From an uncultured bacterium (GTDB lineage: Bacteria > Cyanobacteriota > Vampirovibrionia > Gastranaerophilales > Gastranaerophilaceae), in NCBI GenBank assembly GCA_949291445.1, contig CASEVT010000100.1:1-34792 (forward strand): a stretch of DNA of 34,792 nt. Direction: 5' to 3'. A program made the position numbers and the translations under genes. Positions 16,357 through 20,478 of this stretch are shown one piece after another. Under the pieces are notes generated by a model. The model saw nothing but the letters and a program-made list of their open reading frames with translations, was not told where the DNA came from and did not search any database. Numbering within the stretch: position 1 is the stretch's first letter; every line of letters begins with the position of its first letter.

Positions 16357-17382
16357 ATGGAGAAAATAATTTTTTTTGATGTAGAAGATTATGAGCGTGA
16401 ATTTTTATTGAATAATTGTCAGGGCAGCTATGACTATGTCTTTGTTGAAGAGCCTTTGAATAATCTAAAACCTCTACCGGATGAGTATCTGGATGCTGGA
16501 ATAATTTCTTGTTTTACCAATTCTCGTTTAAGTGAGGATGTTTTGTCTCAATTTAGAGAATTAAAGCTTATTGCTCTTCGCTCGGTCGGGTTCAACCATG
16601 TTGATATCGAATTTTGTAAAAAACATGGGATTGCTGTTGAGACTACTCCTAATTATGGTAATAATAGTGTGGCGGAGTTTGCTATAGGGCTTTTACTTGA
16701 TGTGGCAAGAAAAATTTCTCGCTCTTATATTAATCTGAAAAATCAAAAAGTGAACCCGCTTGAGTGTGTCGGATTTGAGCTTGCTAAAAAAACTATCGGT
16801 ATCGTCGGACTCGGTAAAATCGGAGCTGAAATGGCAAGGCTTGCCAAGGGTTTTGATATGAGAATACTCGGTTACGATATTAAACAGAACCCTTTACTTG
16901 TCGAAAAATATGATGTTCAATATACTACTTTCGACAAATTATTAACTGAATCTGATGTTATATCGTTGCATTCTCCGCTTACGCCTGATAATTTACATCT
17001 GTTTGACAGTGATGCGTTTAAAAAAATGAAAAATTCTGCAATCTTGATTAACACTGCTCGCGGTGAACTTGTCGAAACTCAGGCTCTTTATAATGCGCTT
17101 GTTAACAATGAGATTGCGGGTGCAGGTTTGGATGTGCTCGAGTGCGAAGAGACCCTTTCTAATTCGGATTATTTGGACGATATTGACAGGCTAAATAATT
17201 CCTATCTTAAAAAAACTCTACTCAATAACCGTATTTTGAATCTTGAAAATGCCGTTGTAACCCCGCATATAGCTTATGACACAAAAGAAGCCATACATAG
17301 GATCCTCAATACTACAATGGACAATATCGCTGCTTTTGTTGACGGCAAAATTCAAAATAACGTTATAGATGAACTAAACTAA
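16357..17382 (+). CDS. D-isomer-specific 2-hydroxyacid dehydrogenase (D-lactate dehydrogenase type)
   Basis: The 341-aa enzyme belongs to the D-2-hydroxyacid dehydrogenases, most like D-lactate dehydrogenase. It would reduce pyruvate or another 2-oxoacid with NADH and regenerate NAD in fermentation. The motifs seen are the substrate-side RSVGFNHVDI and TPNYGNNSVAEFAIGLLLD, the NAD-binding GIVGLGKIG (about 148-156), NTARGELV with the catalytic Arg (about 235) and TPHIAYDT with the catalytic His (about 302). A DYLDDIDRLNN insertion near 270 fits the D-LDH subgroup. GGAG precedes the ATG. Its 3' end overlaps the convergent Fic-like gene by 9 bases. Substrate choice between pyruvate and larger oxoacids is uncertain. 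Confidence 0.85.
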   Translation: MEKIIFFDVEDYEREFLLNNCQGSYDYVFVEEPLNNLKPLPDEYLDAGIISCFTNSRLSEDVLSQFRELKLIALRSVGFNHVDIEFCKKHGIAVETTPNYGNNSVAEFAIGLLLDVARKISRSYINLKNQKVNPLECVGFELAKKTIGIVGLGKIGAEMARLAKGFDMRILGYDIKQNPLLVEKYDVQYTTFDKLLTESDVISLHSPLTPDNLHLFDSDAFKKMKNSAILINTARGELVETQALYNALVNNEIAGAGLDVLECEETLSNSDYLDDIDRLNNSYLKKTLLNNRILNLENAVVTPHIAYDTKEAIHRILNTTMDNIAAFVDGKIQNNVIDELN

Positions 17383-18417
17383 CGAGTACCAGGCTCCTCT
17401 GGTTTTTCCGTGCTTTTTGATAATTTTGTTTTCCGTCATTGTTGCAAGATGCTTCTTTACTGTGTTAATGTTGGTTTTTGTAGACTTTGCAACTTCGGAG
17501 ATGGTTATTCTGTCAGATTTTTCAAACATTTTGACAATTTTTACCTGCAATTCCGGTAAATCTTTGTATTCTTTTTGCGGCGGAGTTTGTTTTTTTACGG
17601 ACGCTGTTTTTTTGAGCTTTGCAGGCTCCAGATTATCTATTTCTTCAAGCAAATTCGTTGCATGTTTTTGTAATATCTTTAAATATACCGTATTCCAAAA
17701 CTCAAATTCCAGTTCTTCTCCATCATCCATTGCATTTTCATATGCTGTTTCATAGAGGCTATATTCTTCTTTTATTGTTTTATCTAAGGAGTAATTAGGT
17801 AAGTATGTGTAACCTGATTTTAGCATGATTAACATTGTCAAAAGTCTGGATAATCTTGAATTGGCTCTTGGATAAACCTTTAGCTTCAACATCTCTGCCG
17901 CTACTATACAGGTTACAAAAAGCGGATGCAGCTTTTTGCTGAAAAGTTCCTGTCCTGCCCATTCAAGAATGTCTTCGATTGTATATCCTGACAGGCTGTA
18001 TTTCTCTTCGGTTTCTGTGTTGTCTTCGTATAGGTCTATTCCGCCAAAAATTGTACAGCTATATTCATTATCTTTGGGTTTCGGTATGGCATAATTCTTT
18101 TCAATTTCGGCATCAGGGGGCAGGTTCTCTATCATTCTGTATATTTTGTCGACGGTTTTTTCTGAAAGTATTATTGCTTCATAATCCGCAAATATCCAGT
18201 TTAGTGCCATCAAATATCCGGTCATATCCGTTTCTTCTTCGTATTTCAATACGTCTGAAACGGCTGATACACTCGTCTTTATCGTGGTTTGTAACGGTAA
18301 TACTTTGTCTGTATCAATATTCTTTTTAAAACAGTTCCAATATCCTTTTACTTCATCTATTTTGGATATCAATAATAAAATCTCTTTTGTAATTTCAAAT
18401 TTTGGTGCTTTAAACAT
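17374..18417 (-). CDS. Fic-fold protein with degenerate active site and winged helix
   Basis: The 347-aa protein aligns with Fic enzymes over about residues 15-250. HPLFVTCIVAAEM (from 164) and SRLSRLLTMLIMLKSGY (from 187) frame the position of the HPFxDGNGR motif. Here it reads K180-V-Y-P-R-A-N-S-R188: the catalytic His is Lys, Phe is Tyr, Asp is Arg and both Gly are changed. Asn186, Arg188 and Arg191 are kept. The 16-residue spacing from HPL to the motif equals that of active Fic proteins. The usual N-terminal inhibitory S-x-x-x-E-G is SAVSD, lacking Glu. A C-terminal winged helix (about 290-347) follows. It is probably a regulator or binding protein rather than an AMPylase. A GGAG site precedes the ATG. 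Confidence 0.75.
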   Translation of the reverse strand: MFKAPKFEITKEILLLISKIDEVKGYWNCFKKNIDTDKVLPLQTTIKTSVSAVSDVLKYEEETDMTGYLMALNWIFADYEAIILSEKTVDKIYRMIENLPPDAEIEKNYAIPKPKDNEYSCTIFGGIDLYEDNTETEEKYSLSGYTIEDILEWAGQELFSKKLHPLFVTCIVAAEMLKLKVYPRANSRLSRLLTMLIMLKSGYTYLPNYSLDKTIKEEYSLYETAYENAMDDGEELEFEFWNTVYLKILQKHATNLLEEIDNLEPAKLKKTASVKKQTPPQKEYKDLPELQVKIVKMFEKSDRITISEVAKSTKTNINTVKKHLATMTENKIIKKHGKTRGAWYSLV

Positions 18418-18480
18418 CTCTACTCCGACCCGATAATACTTAATTATATTTTTGCTGATATTTATAAAAAATGCAAACTC

Positions 18481-20442
18481 TTAACTTTGGATAATCTTTT
18501 TTATTTTATATTCTTGTGTTGTTTTTTTGTAATTTATTTTTGATGAAATTATCGGCTGTGTATATTCGGATTTATTGATGGAACGTGCGTCAACTATCGG
18601 TGACGGTGGCATAATTGACCATTTATATAGCGCTGTAGACATCCTTTTGAAAAATTTTTCCAGCCACTCCATTTTTTGTTCCGGAGTAATATTTTCTTTG
18701 GTTTCGTATAAAAATTTTGCTTCCATCATTTGCGTAATACTTTGTTGCAAATTTTCTACACGCCAGATTATTTCATCTAAAAATTCATAGGGCATTAGTG
18801 CTTCTTCTGCCAGCAGCGGTTTTTGAGTTTTGGGGTTGATTGCAAGTTCTGCGCCGGGGCGTTTGGCTATTATTTCTTCCGGGATTGCATTTTTTTTCGT
18901 ACGGTTCTTGTTTAGCCACTTTGCCAGTGCAAATAGTTTCGTCTTGGTTACATCTGCTATTGGCGCAAATCCGCCTGACATATCTCCGTTTATTGTTGCG
19001 TATCCCATATATAATTCGGATTTGTCCGAGGTCGCTATCGGTAATGTGCTCCCAAACTCGTTCGCTATTCCCCACAATATCAACGCTCTTGAGCGTGCTT
19101 GTATATTGTCATTTGTGAAAGATTCTTTGTATCGGCAATCCCATTTTTTTTCAACTTCAGAAAATATATTATCAAATTTGTTTCTTGTAGTTTCATACAT
19201 GTCTTTTATTGAAATTTCGCAAAAATTTATTCCAAGATTGTGCGCTAATCTTTGTGCGTCACTTTTGCTCTCTTCGCTTGTTATTTTTGACGGCATACTT
19301 ATTCCCAAAACATTTTCGGCACCCAGTGCATCTGTTAATAATGTTGCACATACGGTCGAATCCAAACCGCCTGAAAGTCCCAGTACTGCCCTTTTAAAAC
19401 CTGTCTTTCTAAAATAGTCCCTGATTGATTGTATTATTGTCAGATATGTCCGCTCTAAATCAGGTTCGTGATCCAGTGTAAACGCTTTTTGTGAGGTTAG
19501 GGTTTTTTCAAGACCGTTTACTAGCGGGTATATTTTATTTTGTTCGGTATTAAACGGATTTGCTATGAAAAACTGTTCTTCGTATGACTTTGCCATTGCT
19601 ATAAGTTTACCTTGGCTGTCATATACTCTGCTTGCGCCTTCAAACGAAATATTGTCGTTTGAACCTACCTGATTTACGTATACAATGGGGGTTCTGTATT
19701 TCTGTGCAGCAAAGGAAAGCATGTTGTGTTTGAGCTGTTCCTTTTTTGCCCTTGTAATTGATGATGAGCAATTTATCAAATAATCCGGCTGCTGCTCTTT
19801 TACTACCGTTTCTACGGGATCATCTTTGTATAAATTCTTTTCAAAAAAATCTTTATCATTCCATCCGTCTTCACAGATTATTATTCCGGCTTTCTTTTTG
19901 TTGATATCTATTATTCTTGACCCACTATCTATCTGTGCCGGTTCAAAATGTCTGTAATCATTAAATTCTGCGTATGTCGGCAATAATGACTTTTTTATTA
20001 TATTTGTTATTTCTCCGTTTTGCATTACGGCTATTGCATTATAGAATTTTTTTCCGTATTTTTCTTCATTCCTTTTTGCGTAACCTATTATAACTTTTAC
20101 TTTTTTGGTGATTTTTGCTAACGCATTCAACCACTCTTCGTTTTCTTCGACTATTATCGGAAATCGGTCTATGAAATCACCTATCGGATAGCCGATTAGA
20201 TATAACTCAGGAAAAATTATTGCTTCCACGTTTAGCATATTTGCCCATTTTATCCATTTTGCGGCTTTGGTTGCGTTGCCTGCCACGTCTCCGGAAATTG
20301 GGTTCGTTTGTGCAAGTATTATTGAACCTGCCGTTAGTTTTTCGTTTAGTTCTTTTGCTACGGCATCTCTCTTGCTTTCGGTTAAGTGTGTTTCTGCTAT
20401 ATCTTTTTCTATTATCGACGTTAATTCACATATTGTACTCAT
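18481..20442 (-). CDS. nadE: Glutamine-dependent NAD+ synthetase
   Basis: The 653-aa enzyme makes NAD+ from nicotinate adenine dinucleotide with glutamine as nitrogen source. The N-terminal nitrilase-type glutaminase domain has the catalytic Glu in IIFPELYLIGYP (E79), a Lys in KKSLLPTYAEFNDYRHF and the Cys in AGIIICEDGW (near 187). The C-terminal synthetase domain has the ATP-binding LGLSGGLDSTV loop (near 355) and ATSDKSELYMGY. The length is typical of two-domain NadE. I start at ATG 20442; an in-frame TTG 18 bases upstream overlaps the -10 element. The gene stands alone between the Fic-like gene and the HD-GYP operon, all on the same strand, and has its own leaderless-type promoter. Confidence 0.93.
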   Translation of the reverse strand: MSTICELTSIIEKDIAETHLTESKRDAVAKELNEKLTAGSIILAQTNPISGDVAGNATKAAKWIKWANMLNVEAIIFPELYLIGYPIGDFIDRFPIIVEENEEWLNALAKITKKVKVIIGYAKRNEEKYGKKFYNAIAVMQNGEITNIIKKSLLPTYAEFNDYRHFEPAQIDSGSRIIDINKKKAGIIICEDGWNDKDFFEKNLYKDDPVETVVKEQQPDYLINCSSSITRAKKEQLKHNMLSFAAQKYRTPIVYVNQVGSNDNISFEGASRVYDSQGKLIAMAKSYEEQFFIANPFNTEQNKIYPLVNGLEKTLTSQKAFTLDHEPDLERTYLTIIQSIRDYFRKTGFKRAVLGLSGGLDSTVCATLLTDALGAENVLGISMPSKITSEESKSDAQRLAHNLGINFCEISIKDMYETTRNKFDNIFSEVEKKWDCRYKESFTNDNIQARSRALILWGIANEFGSTLPIATSDKSELYMGYATINGDMSGGFAPIADVTKTKLFALAKWLNKNRTKKNAIPEEIIAKRPGAELAINPKTQKPLLAEEALMPYEFLDEIIWRVENLQQSITQMMEAKFLYETKENITPEQKMEWLEKFFKRMSTALYKWSIMPPSPIVDARSINKSEYTQPIISSKINYKKTTQEYKIKKIIQS

Positions 20443-20448
20443 AGTTGA

Positions 20449-20454
20449 ATTGTA
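20449..20454 (-). promoter_or_regulatory. -10 element of nadE, predicted leaderless
   Basis: TACAAT on the - strand ends 6 bases before the nadE ATG (20440-20442). The -35 is not clear, and there is no Shine-Dalgarno sequence. Confidence 0.5.
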
Positions 20455-20478
20455 CAACAAAAAAAATGTCGACTAAAA

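Follow-up and report, generated by a model that had tools for sequence, protein, structure and literature searches.

What remains of a protein that pairs a toxin-like enzyme with a repressor, as Fic-HTH proteins do, when the residues of the enzyme are exchanged? This question is raised by a gene in a stretch of 34,792 nucleotides (the window) from a genome of the family Gastranaerophilaceae (contig CASEVT010000100.1 of assembly GCA_949291445.1; genome G000 in this study). The encoded protein, P0001, had been described in an earlier note, made from the DNA letters only, as a Fic domain without catalytic His that might serve as a sensor or binding module in a transcription factor. Kinch et al. 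(2009) suggested a possible role of Fic-fused HTH domains in the regulation of fic expression (PMC2686095), and CccR of Yersinia pseudotuberculosis, a class II Fic protein with a C-terminal HTH, is an autorepressor with separable repressor and AMPylation activities (PMC9755527). CbFic2 of Coxiella binds DNA of random sequence and has no known operator (PMC10628234). Autorepression by Fic-wHTH proteins is already known from CccR, and what is new here is the catalytically dead version; a search of the open-access literature found no paper on such a regulator. The genus of G000 appears to separate the two functions naturally, with the enzyme gone and the repressor and its predicted operator under selection, and the question of what the HTH does in Fic-HTH proteins becomes directly testable.

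The degenerate fic gene and its neighbors

The open reading frame of P0001 starts with ATG and is free of stop codons, in agreement with the uninterrupted frame claimed previously. It lies on the minus strand, which had not been given; the plus strand across the same interval is rich in stop codons. The features of the locus are listed in Table 1. The convergent dehydrogenase gene adjoins the degenerate fic gene in all three members of the genus (G000, G001, and G002). The nadE gene is present in G002 as well but is not adjacent in G001, and for this reason a functional link between nadE and the fic gene was dropped.

Table 1. Positions in the window of the degenerate fic gene, its parts, and its neighbors
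Feature	Positions	Strand	Remarks
2-Hydroxyacid (D-lactate type) dehydrogenase gene	16357..17382	+	Convergent; 9-bp overlap with the degenerate fic gene; context only
CDS of the Fic-wHTH protein P0001 (347 aa), most likely catalytically dead	17374..18417	-	Open frame; orthologues in G002 (79% identity) and G001 (47%); dN/dS 0.10-0.17
C-terminal winged helix, residues 289-347	17377..17553	-	HTH_24, E = 6.9e-5, above cut-off
Degenerate Fic loop with the residues after it (180-191), KVYPRANSRLSR, Lys replacing the catalytic His	17845..17880	-	Alignment with 22 active relatives
Region of the target-binding flap of active relatives, residues ~100-145	17983..18120	-	Unaligned, low-confidence, and partly disordered in P0001
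Two tandem 10-bp predicted operator units, AATTAAGTAT TATCGGGTCG	18426..18445	-	Best site of the window, 16.0 bits; next 13.1 bits
nadE (NAD+ synthase)	18481..20460	-	Same strand, upstream of the degenerate fic gene, 63-bp gap; context only

P0001 is related to Fic proteins in profile and model

The Pfam Fic model (PF02661) gave no match in P0001 at an E value of ≤10 and none across the whole 1.78-Mb G000 genome at ≤0.001, so that the reading of the bare sequence had caught what a standard scan misses. The same model matched 23 of the 25 members of our alignment and gave the G001 orthologue a score of 22.3 at a cut-off of 24. A profile built from the three degenerate proteins matched Fic-wHTH relatives in the same family with E values down to 5.6e-52 and scores of up to 176 bits, and the PDB entry 8uqu at 2.7e-8, which places homology to Fic-wHTH proteins beyond chance.

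A structure model was calculated from the 25-row alignment, which includes active homologues, and reached a mean pLDDT of 78.6 and a pTM of 0.70. In line with the Fic fold claimed in the earlier note, its best matches were Fic structures: 8uqu_C came first (Z 23.7, 2.7 Å over 226 residues), followed by SoFic, CbFic2, and FICD. A model from the three degenerate sequences alone was poor (pLDDT 41) and unusable, because three sequences are too few. With regard to the Fic/Fido superfamily, P0001 thus has the Fic fold in the model and does not reach the Pfam cut-off, and the profile and model identify it as a Fic protein by descent and fold. SoFic (3eqx/3zcn/3zec), CbFic2 (8cil), and the Bordetella protein 8uqu share its domain order and fold; unlike P0001, they are canonical Fic enzymes by motif.

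Catalytic and inhibitory motifs are lost

The Fic landmarks were found exactly as described before: H164-P165-L166, 16 residues to K180, and then K180-V-Y-P-R-A-N186-S-R188-L-S-R191-L-L, which comprises the KVYPRANSR core and the N-x-R-x-x-R-L-L motif. In the 25-row alignment, K180 is placed under the catalytic His of HPFxDGNGR. Residues 180 to 188 read KVYPRANSR in G000 and G002 and KVYPEANSR in G001. The Lys is hence present in all three orthologues, and none of them carries the sequence HPFx[D/E]GN[G/K]R with the catalytic His by which Fic AMPylases are recognized. Both loop glycines are lost and N186 and R188 are kept; between residues 180 and 191, 11 of 12 residues are identical in the G001 orthologue in spite of an overall identity of 47%.

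The class II helix [S/T]xxxE[G/N] is absent as well. According to the alignment, a deletion of about 22 residues has removed the SxxxEG inhibitory helix together with the residues around it, so that the E of SNRIEG has no counterpart in P0001; in active relatives with complete N-termini this helix is intact. Within the flap region, the model has a pLDDT of about 40 over residues 112 to 142. The exchange of His for Lys and the loss of flap and inhibitory helix make it most likely that the protein does not transfer AMP. The joint loss of catalysis and auto-inhibition, which the earlier note had read from a single copy, appears to be conserved across the genus (n = 3).

Fic proteins with noncanonical motifs can have other activities (PMC8401265, PMC5651007), and a residual group transfer, as reported for some degenerate Fic proteins such as C. 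fetus Fic2 (PMC5651007), would leave P0001 an enzyme. However, the toxicity of C. fetus Fic2 requires its His; in the three species studied here this residue is always Lys, an Arg replaces the acidic Mg ligand in two of them, and the flap is missing. We therefore regard residual transfer as highly improbable. Use of a Fic fold without shown catalysis has a precedent in Bartonella BepC, which has a noncanonical FIC motif, for which no activity was found, and which acts by binding GEF-H1 (PMC8401265). In contrast to P0001, BepC is secreted as an effector, contains a BID domain, and has neither a wHTH nor an operator.

The degenerate form arose once and is maintained

Among 383 genomes of the family and 382 of the class, the three members of the genus scored 616 to 695 bits with the profile of the degenerate proteins, and the next match scored 176 bits. 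Matches of any strength occurred in 149 of the 383 family genomes, active relatives being patchily distributed; every other relative inspected, whether from the family, the order, or the class, keeps the His in a canonical motif or in a motif close to it. The note had named retention of HPFxDGNGR in close homologues as a sign of an isolated decayed copy. The reading withstood this test: the two closest orthologues of P0001 are degenerate in the same manner, and active copies are only 19 to 36% identical to it. No second Fic protein above the cut-off was detected in any of the three genomes of the genus, and the idea that P0001 works together with an active Fic encoded in the same genome was accordingly rejected. 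ParB_N (PF02195) had no match in G000, G001, G002, and G009, a genome of the same family, and one match in the class relative G088.

In the phylogenetic tree, the degenerate form had a single origin (support 100/100) and was nested within the active Fic-wHTH proteins of the order (98/99); its stem branch was long, with 3.1 changes per column. Between G000 and G002, dN/dS was about 0.10 overall, 0.03 in the N-terminal part, 0.07 in the Fic core, and 0.05 in the wHTH, with relaxed selection confined to the linker; these ratios are rough because dS is near saturation.

The lost catalytic and regulatory motifs and the long stem branch could be taken as marks of a decaying gene on its way to a pseudogene. 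We consider this extremely improbable, since the three frames are intact despite near-saturated synonymous divergence, dN/dS is about 0.1 with Fic core and wHTH equally constrained, and the locus with the convergent dehydrogenase gene has been kept. Isolated decay is ruled out by the three orthologues, the low dN/dS, and the synteny. Judged by these comparisons of sequences, the protein is a maintained pseudo-enzyme and not a wreck.

Conservation of the core also bears on the proposal that the Fic pocket senses a ligand, in which the K/N/S/R loop would bind a nucleotide or another anion and switch the wHTH. The altered loop is conserved, with N186 and R188 retained, and purifying selection acts on the Fic core, which agrees with this proposal. 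However, active Fic proteins contact nucleotide and target through the loop glycines, the acidic residue, and the flap; here the flap and both glycines are lost, and so is the acidic residue in two of the three species. Conservation of the core may reflect only folding or dimerization. A sensor function is in our opinion unlikely.

The winged helix and a predicted operator are retained

HTH_24 was the sole Pfam match in P0001 in a scan at an E value of ≤10, and residues 284 to 347 of the model independently matched wHTH structures with 1.0 to 1.7 Å over about 60 residues, which bears out the winged helix proposed before. The active Fic-wHTH proteins of the family (loci L004-L012 and L024-L050) are homologous to P0001 from end to end and have a nearly identical recognition helix (TNINTVKKHL) and wing (HGKTRGAWY), but they differ from it in having intact HPFQDGNGR and SNRIEG motifs. 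Stand-alone open reading frames of 88 amino acids matching only the winged helix of the profile were observed at G321:C25:34208-34402, G327:C4:1959-2153, and G174:C1:175646-175840; these possibly encode free-standing regulators whose recognition helix is related.

In most active relatives, the start codon is preceded by a TTGACA box, a spacer, a TATAAT-like box, and 10-bp direct repeats, in this order. The repeats consist of three to five head-to-tail units of the AATTGGGTAT type, for example TATTAGGTCA TATTAGGTCT AATTAGGTAT, or AATTGGGTAA, and together with the sigma-70-like promoter they are shared by the active genes at L004-L012 and L024-L050. We predict that they are the operator for this clade of active Fic-wHTH genes, for which none was described in the literature searched.

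A weight matrix trained on active genes only, which scores 20-bp tandem pairs on both strands, was used to scan the window. Its best site (18445-18426) directly precedes the degenerate fic gene, overlaps a TATAAT sequence (18448-18443), and abuts the GGAG ribosome-binding site. This predicted operator has just two units, of which AATTAAGTAT is degenerate; active loci mostly have three or more repeats, in one site cluster per locus. Sites of the same type upstream of the two orthologues scored 21.2 and 20.2 bits, and at none of the three genes did any of 2,000 shuffles reach the score of the operator. The predicted operator is specific: background sequence, 368 kb from G001 and 214 kb from G000, contained no site of ≥14 bits. 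Across 10 active loci with a total of 181 kb, some of which had also trained the matrix, all sites of this strength except one were located at the fic promoter. We infer the promoter geometry of the degenerate gene, because a sigma-70 promoter search of its own strand found no good one; its leader contains no Rfam RNA element.

The gene is thus conserved under purifying selection, and both the wHTH and a matching tandem 10-bp site have been kept. Given that a matrix trained on active relatives picks out the site before the degenerate gene and that the orthologues keep this site, a catalytically inactive, autoregulating DNA-binding protein is the most likely interpretation, and the shared upstream predicted operator also favors the transcription-factor role suggested in the note. 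Since catalysis is gone and the wHTH and predicted operator stayed, an autorepressor is the parsimonious reading. We therefore think it probable that P0001 is a pseudo-enzyme that arose once, at the base of the genus, out of a class II Fic-wHTH AMPylase that regulated its own gene, and that it now acts as a DNA-binding autoregulator. A dimer would bind the pair of direct repeats, whose spacing equals one helical turn, cover the -10/ribosome-binding region, and repress its own transcription, as CccR does; the Fic core may have been retained as a dimerization or binding body. The comparison shows the reusable part to be the DNA-binding domain with its predicted operator.

P0001 resembles CccR, which represses its own promoter, in its N-terminal Fic fold, its C-terminal HTH/wHTH, and, at all three degenerate genes, a predicted operator of repeated units in the own promoter region. 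CccR differs in being an active AMPylase with an intact HPFx motif and a SARIEG inhibitory helix, and it binds a pair of 10-bp inverted repeats separated by 26 bp, whereas those of the degenerate proteins are direct tandem 10-bp repeats.

Because incoming active fic genes carry the same operator type, their promoters could also be repressed by P0001. In its strong form, this idea makes P0001 a resident anti-addiction or dominant-negative repressor that silences entering active Fic-wHTH modules or forms mixed dimers with their products. In agreement with it, active relatives occur patchily in the family, the profile having any match in only 149 of its 383 genomes, and the operator type is shared. 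On the other hand, the lack of a detected active Fic in the three genomes fits exclusion and simple absence equally, and the recognition helices have slightly diverged. We regard such a defensive role as quite unlikely.

Further sites and a cluster in G001

In the G000 window, the predicted operator of the fic gene was the only site of ≥14 bits. The next-best sites of the G000 genome, in a CheA-type operon on contig C95 and in a giant autotransporter-like gene on contig C134, lie inside coding sequences at about control frequency, and trans targets in G000 were rejected.

A different picture was obtained for G001, where eight sites of ≥14 bits surround the degenerate fic gene between positions 610 and 8035 of the 8.1-kb contig C21 (L063). 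Besides the gene's own predicted operator, seven sites are located no farther than about 6 kb from the gene, on both strands and in genic as well as intergenic positions. Enrichment was seen only at a spacing of 10, and column-permuted matrices gave 0.1 sites on average, compared to the 8 observed. The seven additional sites were reproduced in none of 300 Markov simulations and none of 500 synonymous shuffles, so that neither composition nor protein coding accounts for them, and they are not duplications, because their flanks are unrelated.

These sites could mean that the protein, freed from catalysis, now binds DNA throughout the region around its own gene, occupying many two-unit sites and bridging or looping several kilobases or more. 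We rate this as very unlikely. The sister species do not clearly repeat the clustering, and a genus-wide dispersed array was weakened on testing, so that the G001 cluster alone stands. A hydA site common to G001 and G002 is present also in G007, a genome of another genus in which the initial search found no relative of the degenerate fic gene, and the site therefore follows the protein sequence. The site in the G002 dehydrogenase gene encodes the GLGKIGS glycine motif of the enzyme, and three G000 sites fall in the giant autotransporter-like gene.

At positions 9109-9090 of the window (minus strand), a weak operator-like site is located in an [FeFe] hydrogenase gene; other genera share the site at the same codons, and it is a binding-site look-alike fixed by the protein sequence. 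The left edge of the window (positions 1 to 288; see also loci L062 and L082) encodes the C-terminus of a repeat protein that is very large and autotransporter-like, the body of which is found on contig C134 in G000 and on contig C38 in G001.
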